DNA of 64,000 nucleotides from an uncultured Pelagibacteraceae bacterium (GTDB lineage: Bacteria > Pseudomonadota > Alphaproteobacteria > Pelagibacterales > Pelagibacteraceae), in contig CACHSP010000001.1 in the NCBI GenBank assembly GCA_902582605.1, positions 62,001 to 126,000 of the forward strand, in the 5' to 3' direction. A program made the position numbers and the translations under genes. The notes below the pieces were generated by a model. The model had not been told where the DNA came from and did no database searches. It saw only the letters and a program-made list of their open reading frames with translations. Shown here piece after piece: positions 13,320 to 31,200 of the stretch (position 1 is its first letter; each line of letters opens with the position of its first letter).

Positions 13320-13775
13320 ATGTTTTTATCGACCTACGAAAACAAATTGGACAAAAAAGGAAGGGTGTCAGTGCCTGCAAGTTATAGATCATATCTATCC
13401 AATTTGGGATATAATGGCGTAATTTGCTATCCTTCTTTTAATAATCAATCAATAGAAGCATGGCCTCAAGATAGAGTAGAAAAAATTTCAAACACAATAG
13501 ACTCTTTAAATCCATTTGAAGAAAAAAGAGATTTTTTTGCAACTTCCATTTTGTCTGAAAGCACAAATTTACAATTTGATAGTGAGGGAAGAATTTCACT
13601 TACTTCAAAATTACTAAAACATGCAAAAATCAAGAATAGCATGATCTTTGTTGGCCAGGGTAAAACATTCCAAATATGGGAACCAACAATATTTGAAAAA
13701 TTTAAGGTCAATGCAAGAAAAAAAGCTAATTTAAATCGAGCCAGCCTTAAATGGGAGCATCAACTAAACAAATAA
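13320..13775 (+). CDS. mraZ: Transcriptional regulator MraZ
   Basis: 151 residues with two SpoVT/AbrB-like repeats: [23 protein letters not shown] at the start and [22 protein letters not shown] in the middle, the DxKGR / DxEGR signature of MraZ. It forms ring-shaped oligomers that bind repeats upstream of its own gene and repress the division and cell-wall cluster. An AGGA-type ribosome site lies about 12 nt before ATG 13320; the nearby ATG at 13313 is out of frame. It is the first gene of the cluster and sits 14 nt before ftsZ. Confidence 0.95.
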
Positions 13776-13789
13776 CGGGGGATAACAAA

Positions 13790-15253
13790 ATGACAATTAA
13801 TTTTAAGGTACCAGAAATAAAAGAACTTCAACCAAGATTATTGGTAATGGGAATAGGTGGAGCTGGAGGAAATGCAATCAATGAAATGATTGATAATGGT
13901 ATGCAAGGTGTTGAATTTATTGCAGTTAATACTGACGCTCAAGATTTAAAACATAGTAAAGCAAAATCTAAAATTCAAATTGGTTTAAATTTAACAAAAG
14001 GTTTAGGAGCTGGAGCAAAACTTGATATTGGCCAAGCTGCTGCTGACGAATCTTTAAATGATATAGTGAATATTTTACAAGGTGCGAACATGGTTTTTAT
14101 AGCTGCTGGTATGGGTGGTGGAACAGGCACAGGTGCTGCGCACGTAATTGCAAGAGCTGCTAAAGAATTAAATATTTTAACAGTTGGAGTAGTTACATTA
14201 CCATTCTTATACGAGGGCCCCTCAAGAATGAGAAGAGCTCAACAAGGTTTGGAGGAGCTAAGAAGACATGTTGATACAATTATTGTTATTCCAAATCAAA
14301 ATTTGTTTAAGATTGCTAATGAGCAAACTACATTTGAAGAGTCATTTAATCTTTCAAATAATGTTTTAATGCATGGTGTTCAGAGTATTACTGATTTAAT
14401 GGTAAGACCAGGATTGATCAACCTTGATTTTGCTGACGTAGAGTCTGTCATGGCTTCAATGGGCAAAGCGATGATGGGCACTGGAGAAGCTGAAGGAGAA
14501 GATAGATCAATGAAAGCTGCAGAGATGGCGATTAGCAATCCTCTAATTGATGATTATACATTAAAAGGAGCAAAAGGGTTGTTAGTTAATATTACTGGTG
14601 GCAAAGATCTTAAATTATTTGAAGTTGATGAGGCTGTAAATAAAGTAAGAGCAGAAGTAGATCCTGAAGCTGAATTAATTATCGGCGCTATCACAGATCC
14701 AGAACTTGATGGAAAAATGAGAGTTTCAATTGTAGCCACATCTTTAGATGGCCAACAACCAGAAACTAAATCAGTTATTAACATGGTCCATCGTATTCAA
14801 AATCGAAATCCTGGTTATTCTGATTTTGGCACAACTGCTGGAACAACTTCTTTTAATTTTCAGAATACAAACTCAAACCCTATTTCTGATGGTGCGACTG
14901 CACTTAAACTAGAAAATGAGATAGTATCAGAGAATATTCAGGGTCAGTCAGTTGATGATATGAACAAGCAGTATCATGAAGAATTGTTGAAAAATCAAGA
15001 GGCTGAACATATTGTAGAAAATATCTCAGAGGACAATGACAATTCCTTTTCACATGAAGTATTAAGCTCATCTAATACTGAGGAGGGGTCCTCAAATGAT
15101 TTGAAGGAATTTGGTGTAGATACAGATGAACCAGATTTATTTAACACAGAAAATCAAGCTTCAACTTCTGACGATTTGCTTGGATCATCAGATGAAGATC
15201 AAGAAGAGGATGATTTGGAAATACCCGCATTTTTACGAAGACAAAAAAATTAA
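13790..15253 (+). CDS. ftsZ: Cell division protein FtsZ
   Basis: 487 residues from ATG 13790, which has a strong GGGGG ribosome site 9 nt upstream; the in-frame ATG at 13751 lies inside mraZ and is unlikely. FtsZ is the tubulin-like GTPase that forms the division ring. It shows [13 protein letters not shown] at the N-terminus, the tubulin signature [11 protein letters not shown] near residues 107-117, a long acidic, Q/N/S-rich linker (about 325-470), and an intact C-terminal peptide [13 protein letters not shown] that usually binds FtsA and other partners. Its place between mraZ and rsmH is unusual: in most proteobacterial clusters ftsZ follows ftsA. Confidence 0.98.
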
Positions 15254-15271: not shown

Positions 15272-16282
15272 ATGGACGCCACCATGGTATCGGATGCTCC
15301 AAAACATTATCCGGTATTGCTTAATGAAATAATTAGCATTATTACCCCTCAACATGGTGGCACATTTATTGATTGTACTTTTGGTCAAGGTGGCTATACC
15401 AAAAAAATTTTAAGTTATAAAGACACTCAAGTAATTGCAATAGATAGAGATATAGAAAGTAAAAAAATTGCGGATAAAATTTCTGAAAAGTTCCCAAACA
15501 GATTTATTTTTAAACATAAAAAGTTTAGTCAATTAGACAACCTCAAACTTAAAAATGAAAAAATTAGAGGGATACTCTTAGATTTAGGTTATTCTTTTAC
15601 TCAAATCAAAGATCCGAAAAAAGGTTTGTCATTTAATTCTGTTGGAGATCTTAATATGCAGATGGGTTTAAATAATTTTTCTGCAAGTGATGCAATTAAT
15701 AATCTGGATGTTCATGAACTAGAGAAAATTTTTAAATTTTTTGGTGAAGAACTAGAAGCCAAAAGAATTGCTTTTAATATTGTTAAAGAAAGAAAGACAA
15801 AAAAAATTGATACAAAAAAATTAGTCGAATTGGTAGAAAAATCAAAAAAAAGAAAAAGTTTTAAGACAAATAATTCTACAAAAACTTTTCAAGCTCTTAG
15901 AATTTTTGTCAATAAAGAAATTAGTGAATTAATATATGGTTTAATTGCAGCTACAAAAGTATTAAAAAAAAATGGTATATTGGCAGTTGTAACTTTCCAT
16001 TCACTAGAGGATAAAATCGTTAAATATTTTTTTAAAAGTTTATCTGAAAAAAAAAGCATATCCCGATATATGCCAAATATAAATCAACCTGAAACATTAT
16101 TTAGTATGGTTGAAAAAAAACCAATAATACCATCAGCCAAAGAATTAAAAGAAAATACTCCATCAAGATCAGCAAAACTGAGATACGTAATTAAGAAAAA
16201 TGATTTTTATAATTTTGAGACAGATATAATTAAAAAATTTAAAACATTTTTAGATATTGAGAATTTTGGTGAAAAATTATGA
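15272..16282 (+). CDS. rsmH: 16S rRNA (cytosine1402-N4)-methyltransferase RsmH (MraW)
   Basis: 336 residues. Recognisable from [12 protein letters not shown], the S-adenosylmethionine motif [48 protein letters not shown], and the C-terminal [15 protein letters not shown] and SRSAKLRYV segments. It methylates C1402 in the decoding centre of 16S rRNA. The start is ATG 15272 (MDATMVSD); ATG 15284 is a possible alternative. The end overlaps ftsL by 4 nt (ATGA), so translation is probably coupled. Confidence 0.96.
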
Positions 16283-16587
16283 AAAAATTTTTTGTTACAA
16301 TCTTTGTATTTTCTTTAATTTTCTCAACGGCAATAGTTAAAAATTCAACAAAAAGGATTGACGATGAAATATTTGTTTTAAAAGAAAACATTAGAGATTT
16401 AAAAAAAAATTTCGAAAATACTAGATTGGAATTTGATTATTTGAGCTCTACTGAAAAATTACTTCAGTTTCAAAATCTTTACTTTGACAATGAACTAATA
16501 AAAATTGATATCCAGAAAATTCAAACAATTACTAGAAAAAATAACGAAATCGAAATAGGTCAATTAAGTTTTAATAAAAATGAGTAA
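16279..16587 (+). CDS. ftsL: Cell division protein FtsL-like
   Basis: 102 residues: a short N-terminus, one membrane segment (about 4-20, [17 protein letters not shown]), then a charged heptad-like region ([30 protein letters not shown]) likely to form the coiled coil that pairs with FtsB, and the short conserved [11 protein letters not shown] motif. Sequence similarity in FtsL is weak, so the call rests on topology, size and position between rsmH and ftsI. It overlaps both neighbours (4 nt and 8 nt). Confidence 0.8.
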
Positions 16588-18271: not shown

Positions 18272-21115
18272 ATGTTACTTAAAGATTATTTCCCAAATAT
18301 TGGAAAAAAATTTGAAAATACTTTTTTTTCTGACATCTGTTTTGAGAGTTCAAAAATAAAAAAAGATAATGTCTTTTTTGCGATTAAAGGCACAAATATT
18401 GATGGAAATAATTTCATATTAGATGCAATAAACAAAGGCTCAAAAATTATTGTAACTGAAAAAAAAATAACAAAATTTCCAAATGGAGTATTAATTATTC
18501 ATTCAAAAAATGTTAGAAAATTATTAGCTGAAGTTTCATTTAAAATTTATGACAAAAAACCAACAAATCTCATAGCAATTACAGGAACTAACGGAAAGTC
18601 TTCTGTAGCTGATTTTTATTATCAAATATTAAAATTTAATAAAAGAAAAGTTGCATCAATTGGAACTTTGGGTGTTAAATCAATCAACGAATATATAAAT
18701 TTATCCAATACAACCATCGACCCAATTCAATTGGGGAAGATATTAAATTATCTTAAAAATCAGAAAGTAGATGATGTAATATTGGAAGCTTCAAGTCATG
18801 GTTTAAGTCAAAATAGGTTAGATGGTTTAAAATTTAATTCAGGAATATTTACAAATTTATCTCAAGATCATTTAGATTATCATAAAAATTTAAAAGATTA
18901 TTTAATCGCAAAACTTTATCTTTTTGAGAAACTTCTATCTATTAAAGGCAATGTAATTACTGATGAAAAAATACCTGAATTTAGAAACATAAAAAAAATT
19001 GCATTAAAAAGAAATTTAAAGATTTATTCTATAAATAATCCAAAAAATCATTTTAAAATTTTATCTCACTATTTTGTAGGTGAGAAACAAATGTTAATAA
19101 TCAAATATAAAAACTTAATCAAAAATATTAAGCTCAATCTTATAGGTAAAATACAACTCAAGAACATAATGATGGCAATTATAGCCGCTCAAAAAAGTAA
19201 TCTAAGTTTAAATAAAATTTTGGGAGTTATTCCAAAAATTAGATCTGTTGAGGGAAGACTAGAAAAAATTGGCAATATTAAAAACAAATCTAAAGTTATC
19301 TTAGATTACGCACATACACCTGATGCATTAAAAATATCTCTTCTTTCACTAAGAGAGCAATTTCCTAATAAAAAAATTGTTCTTTTGTTTGGTTGTGGTG
19401 GGAATAGAGATCAAAATAAAAGATCAAAAATGGGCAAAATTGCTTCATCATATGCTGATCAAATATATTTGACAGATGATAATCCTAGACTGGAAAATCC
19501 TAATAAAATTAGAAAAGATATTAAAAGGGGGATAAATAGTAAAGAAATATCAGAAATTTCTGATAGAGCAAAGGCAATTTCTGAAGCAGTTAAAAATTTA
19601 ACTACAGGCAATATCTTATTAGTTGCTGGCAAGGGTCATGAAAAAATTCAAGAAATTGGTAATCGTAAAATTTATTTTTCAGATAAAAAAATAATTTTAA
19701 ACGCAATTAAATTAAAAAATTTGAATTTATCAAATAATTTGAAATTAAATCTTATTAAAGAATCATCTGGTGATAAAAAATTAAATACAAATTTAACTCT
19801 GGGACAAGCTAGAATTAATTCAAAAGAAGTTAAAAAAAATGATATTTTTTTTGCTATACGAGGTAGGAAAAATGATGGAAATAAGTTTGCAGAAGAAGCT
19901 CTGAAGAAAAAAGCTTCCATAGTAGTTGTTAATAAAATTAAAAAAAAATTAGATCATAAAAAACAAATAAAAGTAACAGATACATTGAAATTTTTGACCA
20001 AAACATCAAGTATTTTTAGAGAGAATATTGATGCAAAGATAATTGCAATAACAGGGAGCTGTGGAAAAACTACACTTAAGGAGTTATTAGGCAAAACTTT
20101 AAAAAAAATTTCTAAAACAACTATTTCCCCCAAATCTTTTAATAACAAATATGGGGTCCCATTAAGCCTTTTTAATTTGCGTAAGAACGATAATTATGGA
20201 GTTTTGGAAGTTGGCATGGATAAAAAAGGGGAAATTGATTATTTATCAAAAATTATCAAACCAGACATAAGCGTTATAACTAATATAAATTACGCTCATG
20301 CTAAAAATTTTAAGAATATAAAAGATATTGCACTTGCAAAATCTGAAATAATTTCAAATACGAAACCAAATGGTTTTGTGATTTTAAATGCAGATGATAA
20401 TTTTTTTAGATTACATCAAAAAATAGCTACCAAAAACAATATTAATACAATTTCATTTGGGATCAAAAATCATAAATCTGATGTGAAGTTAATTAATATT
20501 ATTAAAATTAATGATAATTTTAAAATAAATATCAAAGTTAAAGATTTTAACAAAAATTTTGTGATTTCTAATAATTTTCAAAATAATATTTATAATATTT
20601 TAGCTGCTTTAGCGGTAATGAGTATTAATATTGATATTACAAAATTAGATAAAAAAGTTTTTTTTAATTTTACAACTCCCCAAGGAAGAGGAGATTTATC
20701 AAGAATAAAAATAAATAAAAAAAATATAAACCTAATAGATGAAAGTTATAATTCAAATCCTTTATCCCTTAAATCTGCCATATTAAATTATGATAAAGTA
20801 AAGAGCAAAAAATTCAAAAAGTATCTATTACTTGGTGATATGTTAGAACTTGGAACTCATTCCAAAAAACTTCACCAGTCAATCGTTCCAATAATTAATA
20901 AAACAAAAATTGATAAAATTTTCTTAAAGGGAAACTATATAAGTCCAATATTCAAAAAGATTGTAAAATCAAAAAGAGGTAAAGTTTTTAGAACCAACTC
21001 TCAAATAATTAAATTTATTAAAAATGATTTGAATAATAACGATTATTTAATGGTTAAAGCCTCAAATGCGACAGGTTTTAATAAGATGATTAATGATTTA
21101 AAAGGAATTAAGTAG
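18272..21115 (+). CDS. Fused UDP-MurNAc-tripeptide synthetase / tripeptide-D-Ala-D-Ala ligase (MurE-MurF)
   Basis: 947 residues in one uninterrupted frame, about the sum of MurE and MurF. The MurE half (about 1-480) has the ATP loop AITGTNGKSSV, EASSHGLSQNRLDG, DYAHTPDALK, and the DNPR motif (residues 403-406) that selects meso-diaminopimelate. The MurF half (about 490-947) has NSKEVKKNDIFFAIRG, the ATP loop AITGSCGKTTL near residue 594, NNKYGVPLSL, and DESYNSNPLSLK. The protein should add meso-DAP and then D-Ala-D-Ala to the stem peptide. Fusion may channel the tripeptide intermediate. It abuts ftsI and mraY with no gap. Confidence 0.96.
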   Translation: MLLKDYFPNIGKKFENTFFSDICFESSKIKKDNVFFAIKGTNIDGNNFILDAINKGSKIIVTEKKITKFPNGVLIIHSKNVRKLLAEVSFKIYDKKPTNLIAITGTNGKSSVADFYYQILKFNKRKVASIGTLGVKSINEYINLSNTTIDPIQLGKILNYLKNQKVDDVILEASSHGLSQNRLDGLKFNSGIFTNLSQDHLDYHKNLKDYLIAKLYLFEKLLSIKGNVITDEKIPEFRNIKKIALKRNLKIYSINNPKNHFKILSHYFVGEKQMLIIKYKNLIKNIKLNLIGKIQLKNIMMAIIAAQKSNLSLNKILGVIPKIRSVEGRLEKIGNIKNKSKVILDYAHTPDALKISLLSLREQFPNKKIVLLFGCGGNRDQNKRSKMGKIASSYADQIYLTDDNPRLENPNKIRKDIKRGINSKEISEISDRAKAISEAVKNLTTGNILLVAGKGHEKIQEIGNRKIYFSDKKIILNAIKLKNLNLSNNLKLNLIKESSGDKKLNTNLTLGQARINSKEVKKNDIFFAIRGRKNDGNKFAEEALKKKASIVVVNKIKKKLDHKKQIKVTDTLKFLTKTSSIFRENIDAKIIAITGSCGKTTLKELLGKTLKKISKTTISPKSFNNKYGVPLSLFNLRKNDNYGVLEVGMDKKGEIDYLSKIIKPDISVITNINYAHAKNFKNIKDIALAKSEIISNTKPNGFVILNADDNFFRLHQKIATKNNINTISFGIKNHKSDVKLINIIKINDNFKINIKVKDFNKNFVISNNFQNNIYNILAALAVMSINIDITKLDKKVFFNFTTPQGRGDLSRIKINKKNINLIDESYNSNPLSLKSAILNYDKVKSKKFKKYLLLGDMLELGTHSKKLHQSIVPIINKTKIDKIFLKGNYISPIFKKIVKSKRGKVFRTNSQIIKFIKNDLNNNDYLMVKASNATGFNKMINDLKGIK

Positions 21116-27957: not shown

Positions 27958-28869
27958 TTGAAAAAAATATTAATAATTTCAGGAGGAATTTCAAAAGAAA
28001 GAGCAATCAGCCTTGATACTGGAAAGCAAGTAGCCAAGGAATTGAAAAAAAATAATTATTCTGTAAAAATAACAGAGCCAAATTTTCAGCTATTTGATGT
28101 TATTAAAAAATTCAAACCAAACCAAATTTTTAATGCATTGCATGGTCAGTTTGGTGAAGACGGTTACATTCAAACAATACTAGAGAGTTATAAAATTCCC
28201 TATACTCATTCAGGTGTAATTTCATCATCAATAGCAATGGATAAAGTGTTGTCAAAAAAGATTTTTATAAAGAATAAAATATTGACCCCAAAATTCTTGA
28301 CCTTTTCTTTCAGCAAAAATGAAAAAAATATTGTTAGAACTGTTGAAAAAAAACTTAAATTTCCAGTTGTTTTAAAGCCAATCAATGAGGGTTCAAGTGT
28401 AAATGTGTTTATATGCACAAAAAAAAATATCAAAAAAAAATTGCGGTATTTAGAAGATTATAAAAAAATAATCATTGAAGAATTTATTCCAGGTCGAGAA
28501 ATACAGGCTGCAATGATTGGTTCTAAGAAACTTGGTGCAATTGAATTAAAACCAAAAAGGAAATTTTATGACTATCAAGCAAAATATAATCCAAAAGCAA
28601 AAACTGAACATATCATACCAGTGGATTTACCAAAAAAAAAATACGAACAAATAATGAAAATTTCTTCTAAAGCACATAGTTTAGTTGGTTGTAGAGGAGT
28701 TACCCGTTCAGATTTCAAATATTACAGGGGTAAGTTTTATCTTTTAGAAATTAATACTCAGCCAGGAATGACAAAACTTTCTTTAGTTCCTGAGATTGCT
28801 GCATTTCGTGGTATAAGTTTTATTAAACTTATTGAATTAATTTTAAAAGATGCTTCAACAAATAAATAA
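27958..28869 (+). CDS. ddl: D-alanine--D-alanine ligase
   Basis: 303 residues, ATP-grasp. Motifs: ILIISGGISKERAISLDTGK, FNALHGQFGEDGYIQTIL, YTHSGVISSSIAMDKVLSKKIF, FPVVLKPINEGSSVNVF, GCRGVTRSDFKYY and LLEINTQPGMTKLSLVPEIAA. It makes the D-Ala-D-Ala added by the MurF half of the fusion. The start codon is TTG, directly after the murB stop; no better start is present before the conserved glycine-rich segment. It overlaps ftsQ by 20 nt. Confidence 0.96.
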   Translation: MKKILIISGGISKERAISLDTGKQVAKELKKNNYSVKITEPNFQLFDVIKKFKPNQIFNALHGQFGEDGYIQTILESYKIPYTHSGVISSSIAMDKVLSKKIFIKNKILTPKFLTFSFSKNEKNIVRTVEKKLKFPVVLKPINEGSSVNVFICTKKNIKKKLRYLEDYKKIIIEEFIPGREIQAAMIGSKKLGAIELKPKRKFYDYQAKYNPKAKTEHIIPVDLPKKKYEQIMKISSKAHSLVGCRGVTRSDFKYYRGKFYLLEINTQPGMTKLSLVPEIAAFRGISFIKLIELILKDASTNK

Positions 28870-29518
28870 GAAAATTATTTTTTATATTTCTTTGGTAATC
28901 ATTCTTGGCACTTTCAATAACAAAAATTTGAAAGGTTTTGATCTTCCTAAAATTAATATAATTGATATAGAAGGAATAGAATTTAATAATAATGAATTTC
29001 TTAAAATCACAAATTTAATAAGATTTAATAATTTATTATCTATTCAAAAATCTCAAATAAAAGAAATATTAAACTCTAATAATTTAATTGAAGAATATGA
29101 AGTGTTTAAAAGATATCCATCATCTCTTGAAATCAAGATTAAAAAAACAAATTTTTTAGCATCTACAAATGTAAATGGAAAAAATTATTTAGTTGGATCT
29201 AATGGAAAATTTATTGATACAAAAAACTATTCTAAAAATTTACCTTTTGTTTTTGGAAACTTTAAAACAGTAGAATTTATAGAATTTAAAAATATCATTC
29301 TTCAAACTGATTTTGAATATGATAATATAAAGAATTTCTACTATTTTCCCTCAGGGAGATGGGATATTGAAATGATCTCAGGAATTTTAATAAAATTACC
29401 GATTACAGGAATTAAAGAGTCATTAAATTTATCAATTGAATTACTTAATAATATAAAGTTCAGAAATATAAAAATTTTAGATATACGTCAAAAAAATCAA
29501 ATTGTCATAAATGACTAA
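28850..29518 (+). CDS. ftsQ: Cell division protein FtsQ-like
   Basis: 222 residues, shorter than usual (about 250-310). One N-terminal membrane segment (about 8-24), then a POTRA-like domain (INIIDIEGIEFNNNEFLKITNLI, followed by ILNSNNLIEEYEVFKRYPSSLEIKIKKTNFLA) and a beta domain (NVNGKNYLVGSNGKFIDTKNYSKNLPFVFG), in the FtsQ order. It links the early and late divisome through FtsBL. The place between ddl and the ftsA slot supports the call. The cytoplasmic N-terminal tail is almost absent. It overlaps the next gene by 8 nt. Confidence 0.88.
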   Translation: MLQQINKKIIFYISLVIILGTFNNKNLKGFDLPKINIIDIEGIEFNNNEFLKITNLIRFNNLLSIQKSQIKEILNSNNLIEEYEVFKRYPSSLEIKIKKTNFLASTNVNGKNYLVGSNGKFIDTKNYSKNLPFVFGNFKTVEFIEFKNIILQTDFEYDNIKNFYYFPSGRWDIEMISGILIKLPITGIKESLNLSIELLNNIKFRNIKILDIRQKNQIVIND

Positions 29519-30215
29519 AAAAATAGATTTCCAGACATATCTTTATTTAAATCATAATCAATTTATTATTTATGTTGATGAAATTTCAACTAAGGAAAAA
29601 ATTTATTCTGAAAAATTAGTAATAAAAGAAAATTCTACAGAATTAAGGTTAAGTAAATTGGATGAATTTTTAGATTCCAACATATTTAAAATTGAAAAAA
29701 AATTAAATAGTTTTGTTAAAGATACACATGTAATTTTAGATAGTAATGAATTTCACTCCATAAAATTGTCAATCAAAAAAGATAATAATGGAAATCTTAT
29801 AAACTCAGAGGCTTTAATTCACCCATTAAATGATTTAAAAAATTTATGTCAATCGAATTTACAAAATAAAAAAATTATACATTTTCTTATAGAAAGATAC
29901 ATAATCGACAATAAATTTTATACAGCTTTACCAGAAAATGTTAATTGTAATATTTTTTCTTTAGATACAGAATTTATTTGCCTTTCAAAAAATTTAATTG
30001 AAAATACAGAAAAGATTTTAAAAAAATATCATATTTCGTTAAATCAAATTTTAAGTGCTAGTTATTTAGAAAAATTGAAAGATAATTCAGATAACACTAT
30101 TTTTACAACAGCAAGTAGAATTATTTCAGGCCACAATAGCAATGAGGTTTTGCTTATTGGTAAAACTAACAAAAAATATGGTTTTTTTGAGAAATTCTTT
30201 AATTTTTTTAATTAA
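29511..30215 (+). CDS. Reduced FtsA-like protein lacking the ATPase core
   Basis: 234 residues, against about 420 for FtsA, located exactly where ftsA belongs (after ftsQ, before the usual ftsZ slot and lpxC). Residues 66-190 resemble FtsA subdomain 1C: a helix, IIHFLIERYIIDNKFYTALPENVN (compare the IDG...P.G pattern of FtsA), a strand, a helix (NLIENTEKILKKYHIS) and SASYLEKL. The actin-fold phosphate motifs and the DIGGGTTD segment of subdomain 2A are absent. The last 14 residues (KKYGFFEKFFNFFN) could form an amphipathic membrane helix like the FtsA targeting sequence. I infer a minimised FtsA relic or derivative; an unrelated protein in the same slot is possible. Confidence 0.6.
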   Translation: MTKKIDFQTYLYLNHNQFIIYVDEISTKEKIYSEKLVIKENSTELRLSKLDEFLDSNIFKIEKKLNSFVKDTHVILDSNEFHSIKLSIKKDNNGNLINSEALIHPLNDLKNLCQSNLQNKKIIHFLIERYIIDNKFYTALPENVNCNIFSLDTEFICLSKNLIENTEKILKKYHISLNQILSASYLEKLKDNSDNTIFTTASRIISGHNSNEVLLIGKTNKKYGFFEKFFNFFN

Positions 30216-30279: not shown

Positions 30280-31200
30280 GTGTCATTGTTAAGTCAAAAA
30301 ACTTTAAAAAAAACAGCAACTTTTAGTGGAGTTGGACTTCACAATGGTAAATTAGCTAAAGTATTAGTTAAGCCCTCTGAACCAAACACAGGTATTGTTT
30401 TTAAAAGAGTTGATTTAAAATCAAAAAATTATGTTTATCCAAGTTTTACTAACGTAACTAATACATTATTAAATACAACTATATCTAACGAGCACGGAGT
30501 AAAAGTATCAACCATTGAACATTTAATGGGTGCTTTATTTGGATTAGGGATTGATAATGCGCTGGTGGAAATAAATAATGAAGAAGTTCCAATTTTAGAT
30601 GGTTCAGCAAAAGAATTTATAGAAATTTTAAAAACTTGTGGATTAAAAAAAAGTGAGGCGCCAATTAAAATAATTAAGATACAAAAAAAGATAACATATC
30701 ATTACGGAGAGAAATTTATTTCCATAGAGCCTTCTAAATTAAGTTTGGATATTAGTTTTAAGTTGAAATATGAAGATTGTTTGATTGGAAATCAAGAAAA
30801 TAAAGTAAACGTTTACGAAGACGATTTAATAGATATTTTTAACTCAAGAACGTACTGTTTATTCGACGATGTAGAAAAAATTAAAAAAAAAGGACTTGCA
30901 AAAGGTGGTAGTTTAGATAACGCGATCGTTGTAAAGGGTAATGAAATTTTAAATTCTGAAAAGCTTAGAAATCCTAAAGAGTTTGTAAATCACAAAATAT
31001 TAGATTGTATTGGAGATTTATACACAAGTGGTTATAGAATAATCGGAAGTGTAAATTGCTCACAAGGAGGTCATTTCCTTACAAATCAACTTTTAAAGAA
31101 AGTATTTGAAAATAAAGAAAACTTCTCAATAATTGAGATACAAGAAAGAAATCTTCCACATACAATTCTAAATAAAACCTTATTAAGATCGATTGCCTAA
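30280..31200 (+). CDS. lpxC: UDP-3-O-acyl-N-acetylglucosamine deacetylase
   Basis: 306 residues. It commits UDP-acyl-GlcNAc to lipid A synthesis. Motifs: GVGLHNGKLAKVLVKPSEPNTGIVF, STIEHLMGALFGLGIDNALVEINNEEVPILDGSA (one zinc histidine), FNSRTYCLFDDVEKIKKKGLAKGGSLDNAIVV, and NHKILDCIGDLYTSGYRIIG (further zinc ligands). The start is GTG 30280. Its presence indicates that this organism makes lipid A. The preceding 64 nt have no evident hairpin. Confidence 0.96.
   Translation: MSLLSQKTLKKTATFSGVGLHNGKLAKVLVKPSEPNTGIVFKRVDLKSKNYVYPSFTNVTNTLLNTTISNEHGVKVSTIEHLMGALFGLGIDNALVEINNEEVPILDGSAKEFIEILKTCGLKKSEAPIKIIKIQKKITYHYGEKFISIEPSKLSLDISFKLKYEDCLIGNQENKVNVYEDDLIDIFNSRTYCLFDDVEKIKKKGLAKGGSLDNAIVVKGNEILNSEKLRNPKEFVNHKILDCIGDLYTSGYRIIGSVNCSQGGHFLTNQLLKKVFENKENFSIIEIQERNLPHTILNKTLLRSIA

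Follow-up and report, generated by a model that had tools for sequence, protein, structure and literature searches.

The window analyzed here is a stretch of 64,000 nucleotides from the genome of an uncultured Pelagibacteraceae bacterium (G000; 966,519 bases in 33 contigs, 78% complete). A preliminary description had placed a 234-residue protein at the ftsA position, flanked by ftsQ and lpxC, and the open reading frame was read there, between these two genes as FtsA genes are (Table 1). Its start overlaps the 3′ end of ftsQ by 8 bases, and a gap of 64 bases separates its end from lpxC. We refer to the product as half-FtsA.

The ftsZ gene stands about 16 kb away from ftsA, at the head of the cluster instead of after ftsA, and a comparable distance between ftsZ and lpxC was seen in other genomes of the genus and family. 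It overlaps an ORF that, from reading the sequence, is mraZ-like (window 13320-15253). A 102-aa ORF in the mraW/ftsI interval (window 16279-16587), hydrophobic near its N-terminus and heptad-like thereafter, is probably FtsL, and murE and murF read as apparently one fused ORF of 947 aa (window 18272-21115).

Table 1. Genes and parts of half-FtsA in the window, with the basis of each assignment
Feature	Position in window	Strand	Basis
ftsZ, head of the dcw cluster	13751..15253	+	C-terminal 12-residue peptide at 15215-15250
ftsQ	28850..29518	+	Pfam FtsQ_DivIB_C, 27.4 bits (cut-off 21)
Short ftsA (half-FtsA), 234 aa, ATG start	29511..30215	+	ORF and FtsA profile comparisons
Residues 1-40, 1A N-terminal hairpin, site of phosphate-1 in FtsA, motif eroded	29511..29630	+	Alignments; least constrained part
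Residues 45-190, rest of the N-terminal half of lobe I	29643..30080	+	hhalign to canonical FtsA 52-195, E 1.5e-5
Junction, about residues 190-198, lobe II missing, exact residue uncertain	30078..30104	+	Alignments, spacing
Residues 198-213, last 1A helix and NEV motif	30102..30149	+	Matches C.SG.K..G.NKQEV of the nearest full-length forms
Residues 223-234, predicted amphipathic membrane-targeting helix GFFEKFFNFF(N)	30177..30212	+	Conserved Phe, helical moment
lpxC	30280..31200	+	Pfam LpxC, 304 bits

Profile comparison firmly indicates that the window protein is a descendant of FtsA; the single-sequence evidence is thin. At E ≤ 10 the only NCBIfam model that it matched was ftsA (TIGR01174; 20.1 bits, E 2.7e-4). 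The match is co-linear (residues 115-185 on model positions 112-182) and does not reach the cut-off of 175.85, which was passed in just 2 of 61 genomes of the order, most full-length FtsA proteins there falling below it too. Among 35 aligned short relatives, the window protein included, 29 matched the ftsA model individually (E ≤ 0.1), and each of the 15 other families listed was matched by one to four of the 35 (best E 5e-4). A Pfam search of the window protein gave no FtsA or SHS2 match at E ≤ 10; the 1C insert, for which Pfam SHS2_FTSA had no match, is covered by the profile alignment to FtsA.

The short forms were aligned (69 rows: 62 named loci, six divergent members of the genus, and the window protein), and this alignment was compared by hhalign with other families, each E-value being that of a single comparison. 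Against 10 full-length FtsA proteins of the genus it gave E 1e-34 over residues 5-190, and against canonical FtsA E 1.5e-5 and a probability of 79%, residues 45-190 falling on 52-195; seven unrelated dcw families used as decoys gave E 0.08-0.66 and probabilities below 1%. The 63 closer short forms alone gave 9e-28 for the full-length genus proteins, 3.7e-5 for canonical FtsA, and 0.07-0.77 for the decoys. The canonical alignment consisted of E. coli FtsA as first row and 17 alphaproteobacterial proteins, which a motif filter had kept from 25 fetched loci, excluding the other 8. In a PDB profile search FtsA chains were the top three among five matches (E 0.033-0.12), in register.

The alignments indicate that half-FtsA is an ftsA from which lobe II was removed by one in-frame internal deletion. 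Between full-length and short forms of the genus the alignment runs from the N-terminus as far as a helix with SxY at its end (E. coli residue 194). In residues 45-190 the order, with secondary structure inferred from the FtsA fold, is a helix (FL..NI.KIEK), a strand, the 1C insert, and then a helix and a strand. The SxY helix and the last 1A helix (E. coli 375-386) flank the missing part, which corresponds to about residues 197-375 of E. coli FtsA. The deletion takes the phosphate-2 motif (E. coli 208-215) and the adenosine motif (334-340), and by the known domain boundaries subdomains 2A and 2B lie wholly inside the lost stretch. Between the columns of Tyr185 and Glu212 there are 27 residues in 64 of the 69 short forms, 26 in three, and 28 in two.

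Two free tests bear on what follows the junction. Aligned with the full-length FtsA of G007 or G025, the window protein (P0001) gives two separate blocks of similarity. The short-form profile splits in the same manner on the full-length proteins of G178, G469, and G522; its second block (residues 184/188-233/234) falls there on the C-terminal tail with E-values of 8e-8, 9e-6, and 6e-8, respectively. The stretch FTTASRIISGHNSNEVLLIG and its equivalents in the 69 short forms scored 16.9-24.9 against the tails of G025, G030, G007, and G178, and in these four proteins the tail was the best-scoring place anywhere (3.1-10.8 near phosphate-2); the same stretch was uninformative for seven other full-length forms, whose tails have diverged. 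Because of the second profile block and this scoring, the NEV stretch was assigned to the C-terminal tail. Two whole-length MAFFT alignments placed it beside or under phosphate-2, so the exact junction residue is uncertain; a third put it on the tail by construction, the last 42 residues having been cut out for it. In the alignments the GFFEKFFNFF segment lies on the C-terminal helix of the full-length genus proteins. It has a helical moment of 0.56, a value reached by 4% of shuffles (0.57 for the E. coli helix), and is predicted to be a membrane-targeting helix.

We infer that the product is half of an actin fold, made of lobe I (1A and 1C), the last 1A helix, and the membrane helix. The preliminary description of a reduced FtsA is borne out by the profile comparisons and alignments, and so is its similarity to FtsA in the profile-profile check (E 1.5e-5 for canonical and 1e-34 for full-length genus FtsA). 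It had reported that the ATP motifs were absent, and the alignments agree: neither phosphate-2 (DIGGGTTD) nor the adenosine stretch is present and phosphate-1 is eroded. Its missing 2B is likewise seen in the alignments, where nothing corresponds to about E. coli 197-375, and its amphipathic, FF-rich C-terminal helix is the one whose alignment and moment are given above. The similarity to 1C that it saw at residues 66-190 lies within the stretch aligned by profile to lobe I, but not 1C alone was kept, since the rest of lobe I and the last 1A helix are also there. The term "actin-fold-free" is therefore probably wrong, as the alignments place 1A strands and helices together with 1C in an N-terminal lobe.

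Like FtsA (TIGR01174; 7q6d, 7q6f, 1e4f), half-FtsA follows ftsQ and has a homologous lobe I, aligned by profile over the 1C insert, the last 1A helix, and a C-terminal amphipathic helix; unlike FtsA it has neither the stretch from phosphate-2 to adenosine nor 2A and 2B. With the full-length FtsA of its own genus (for example G025, G030, and G178; 368-394 aa from ATG) it shares the N-terminal half, the ftsQ/lpxC locus, and, for the nearest of them, the tail. It is 135-160 residues shorter than these proteins, which keep lobe II, though their phosphate-2 motif is divergent (DIGFNKTS or DIGYEKTS, for example). The 222-aa short form of L267 (G106) also lacks, by eye, about a dozen residues of 1C, a further reduction.

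A tree of seven neighboring genes (30 genomes, quick search, LG+G4, full-length outgroups) showed three changes between short and full-length forms. Taken as the species tree, it implies either three deletions or one deletion and recombination. The ftsA gene itself did not reject a single short clade (p-AU 0.47) and rejected the species topology with all columns of the N-terminal part (p-AU 0.0001), without the phosphate-1 columns (0.0029), and with 1C only (0.013). The junction spacing of 27 residues is also found in G008, G009, G034, and G029, which belong to separate species clades, and the NEV tail of the short forms is common to G025, G030, G007, and G178 and not to the other full-length forms. 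Three independent deletions are thus less likely, given the gene tree and the identical spacing across separated lineages, and we favor one deletion that would later have been exchanged by recombination. It is favored rather than shown, because relaxation shared by the short rows once lobe II was lost could also group them in the gene tree.

A recombined stretch in the dcw cluster was seen in G023 (L190), whose murG, murC, and murB are 65, 85, and 75% identical to those of the window; its tree neighbors G004, G005, and G031 have 44-46, 61-62, and 55-56%, respectively. Full-length SAR11 FtsA proteins (L264 of G411, G025, G030, G178, and others) read DFGFDKTS, DIGYEKTS, DMGFNKTS, DVGFNKTS, or DIGFNKTS at phosphate-2, where canonical proteins have DIGGGTTD or a similar motif. 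A decay of the ATP site before the loss of the lobe was considered, and this idea is weakened since the PDB FtsA chains 3wt0 and 3wqt, which read DIGEDVT, also lack GGGT there; we take these to be S. aureus FtsA, with ATP in one related entry. A 386-aa FtsA-like protein with no ATP motifs by eye occurs in a 0.63-Mb alphaproteobacterial genome (L268, G338), possibly a parallel erosion.

The short gene is widespread in the genus. Of 80 named SAR11 loci, 62 have a complete, ATG-started gene of 232-235 aa ahead of lpxC; in the other 18 the contig ended too early upstream (9), the gene was cut by a contig end (8), or there was a 161-aa piece with a TTG start (L129), so that 62 of the 63 loci intact with respect to contig ends had it. 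No full-length form stood upstream of lpxC among the 80, which come from SAR11 single-cell genomes and MAGs, nearly all Pelagibacteraceae, and which, being those closest in lpxC, do not represent the genus evenly.

An order-wide draw of mostly incomplete genomes, searched with the short-form profile, gave matches in 97 of 148, 80 of them in the genus. These 80 comprised 51 with an intact short form (open frame of 220-245 aa), 21 with a full-length form (370-394 aa), six with pieces only, and two with internal stops (G012, G550). The 13 matches in other genera of the family were 398-407 aa long, save two lying by contig ends (216 and 320 aa), and the four in another family of the order were 397-403 aa. 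Among 20 listed of the 51 genomes without a match, seven belonged to the genus (at least 91% complete, single-contig G471 included) and seven to other genera of the family; the lack of a match does not equal absence, because the search misses G010, a known divergent full-length case. In that genome (L184) the full-length gene has an in-frame TAA near the border of lobes I and II. A draw from the genus matched 207 of 300 genomes. Of 143 genomes drawn from the whole class, 142 had a match to the ftsA model at 1e-10 (counting those due to MreB), and the cut-off was exceeded in 126; no other uncut short FtsA was present among the matches listed.

We consider it reasonably probable that this lobe II-deleted ftsA encodes a nucleotide-free half-actin that serves as a membrane adaptor of the divisome. 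The reading follows from the parts lost and kept: the deletion takes away the ATP pocket, the site for FtsZ, and the contact used in polymers, and the cleft, the membrane helix, and the surface for lateral contacts stay. The folded half-actin would sit on the inner membrane by its C-terminal helix and would neither bind nor hydrolyze ATP. Assembly into the FtsA protofilament would be impossible for it, as the longitudinal IIA-IIB contact has lost both of its sides, and it would present its IA-IC cleft and 1C surface to divisome proteins acting downstream. The contact of 2B with the FtsZ peptide would be lost, and FtsZ might be held by a re-sited contact on half-FtsA or by an unrecognized anchor.

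In FtsA of E. coli and Vibrio, the tail of FtsN is bound in the IA-IC cleft, and the antiparallel double filament has lateral contacts through IC and longitudinal ones through IIA-IIB (Nierhaus et al., PMC7613929). The same text compares PilM-PilN with FtsA-FtsN (PMC7613929). As an adaptor whose IA-IC cleft holds the peptide of a bitopic partner, PilM resembles the use proposed for half-FtsA, and it matched two full-length SAR11 FtsA proteins weakly. PilM has a full actin-like fold and binds ATP. A search for SPOR domains found matches in 24 of 31 genomes, 12 of them over the cut-off. No bitopic FtsN was recognized among them: 16 SPOR proteins, read out of 20 loci fetched, look like RlpA-type lipoproteins. 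Since no FtsN was recognized, nothing in these genomes can be named as the partner of 1C known from E. coli. The failure of Pfam to see 1C in half-FtsA also counts against a folded half-actin. The FtsA truncations T1, T2, and T6 of N. gonorrhoeae showed no binding to either FtsZ or FtsN in two-hybrid assays, and both contacts were attributed to 2A and 2B (PMC5727935). Those results speak against lobe I alone sufficing, and they count in the same way against half-FtsA as an adaptor and as a tether of FtsZ.

The latter, that half-FtsA still tethers the Z-ring to the membrane by holding the FtsZ peptide on lobe I (for example in the IA-IC cleft) without ATP or polymers, is possible but in our judgment doubtful. 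The preliminary description had stated that FtsZ keeps its C-terminal binding peptide, which was found in place (Table 1), and the ending (the 10-residue peptide plus one residue) did not vary among the 24 genus genomes read, of which 13 have a short FtsA and 11 a full-length one. This unchanged peptide fits a retained contact with FtsZ at least as well as it fits an adaptor; the peptide may, on the other hand, be kept for other ligands.

Nor was another tether found. SepF was over the cut-off in none of 31 genomes (sub-threshold matches of 20-22 residues in six), its domain PF04472 had no match in P0001 at E ≤ 10, and ZipA was found in none of 32 genomes, with E. coli as the sole control that gave a match. 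SepF and ZipA are membrane-bound and can hold FtsZ without an ATPase; neither family matches half-FtsA in Pfam. The search for anchors covered these two families; other FtsZ anchors, such as FzlC, are known. The conservation of the membrane helix, described below, would suit a tether. Against a tether stands the loss of 2B, the known FtsZ-binding subdomain, which reportedly binds the FtsZ peptide in a Thermotoga complex, as does the absence of FtsZ binding by the gonococcal truncations (PMC5727935). In the broadest form of this idea, which we advance only tentatively, the half-actin would be the sole tether and organizer of the Z-ring in much of SAR11, with the FtsZ peptide now bound by the IA-IC lobe in place of 2B.

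Half-FtsA is under purifying selection. The median dN/dS was 0.257 (0.138-0.397) over 105 pairs of 15 close relatives, with 0.074 for lpxC. By region, pN/pS was 0.50 in the N-terminal hairpin, 0.24 in residues 67-190, 0.15 (the lowest) in 201-215, and 0.22 in 216-234. In the 69 short forms the membrane helix is the most conserved stretch; Glu62, Glu212, Phe226, and Phe230 are invariant and Phe233 is conserved in 99%, as are Lys110 (91%) and His124 (99%) in 1C.

We therefore regard it as very improbable that half-FtsA is a decaying remnant without function, on its way out, and a pseudogene was rejected on the substitution pattern (dN/dS). Such decay could be read into the internal stops in two of the 80 matched genus genomes (G012, G550), the 161-aa TTG piece that is all L129 keeps, the still shorter open frames of 220-223 aa in G106, G135, and G516, and the at least seven genus genomes of at least 91% completeness listed without a match. 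These cases stand against the dN/dS range over the 105 pairs, 51 intact copies with an open frame of 220-245 aa, and the invariant Phe residues of the membrane helix. In single-contig G012 (L020, L185) the short gene is split by a frameshift at a run of A, where a sequencing error is plausible.

A supply of the missing lobe in trans, by a split FtsA or by MreB, deserves equally little credence. The preliminary description had raised the possibility of a second ftsA; none was found in the window's own genome, which is 78% complete, or, with the ftsA model, in 18 short-form genomes of at least 90% completeness. Three of these are single contigs (G321, G106, and G012, in which the short gene is broken), and as the search found none in these three, it is unlikely that the 22% lacking from the window's genome contains another ftsA of full length. 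In the 18 genomes the model found the short gene in 11, proteins of MreB size in 16, and proteins of DnaK size (both named by size and matched region), together with two weak matches in other proteins (G158, 515 aa; G009, 1,139 aa). It missed the short gene at E ≤ 0.1 in G106, G012, G135, G217, G029, G022, and G309, where searches with the short-form alignment or protein recovered it. Nor would another copy of full length have been overlooked for weakness, because in ten genomes with the full form the model found every full-length genus FtsA at E 2e-14 or better. The MreB-sized proteins (336-359 aa) match the actin core of the model and might supply a lobe, but an MreB-like gene is also present in genomes with full-length FtsA. 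A split gene with lobe II elsewhere was rejected, since the model found no separate lobe II gene in the 18 genomes; no room is left for one between ftsQ, the short gene, and lpxC.

That an unrelated protein replaced ftsA at the same place, as the missing Pfam FtsA/SHS2 domain and the weak single-sequence similarity might suggest, has next to no probability and, provided that the alignment of full-length relatives is itself correct, is ruled out by the profile match to full-length genus FtsA (E 1e-34) and the C-terminal tail common to the nearest full-length forms.

The open-licence papers searched contained, in the portions covered, no earlier report of a reduced FtsA in SAR11. ATP binding, filaments, and the contact of 2B with FtsZ are usually taken as the heart of FtsA, and half-FtsA has dropped all three, in a genus that includes some of the most numerous cells of the sea and in which related species keep the whole protein. 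With 2B gone and neither SepF nor ZipA found, the question is raised of what anchors FtsZ to the membrane. If half-FtsA were indeed the sole tether, FtsZ-based division would proceed there without an ATP cycle of FtsA, FtsA filaments, or any known second anchor. Either way, the short ftsA is a natural deletion experiment, in which the functions of lobe I are separated from those of FtsZ tethering and polymerization.
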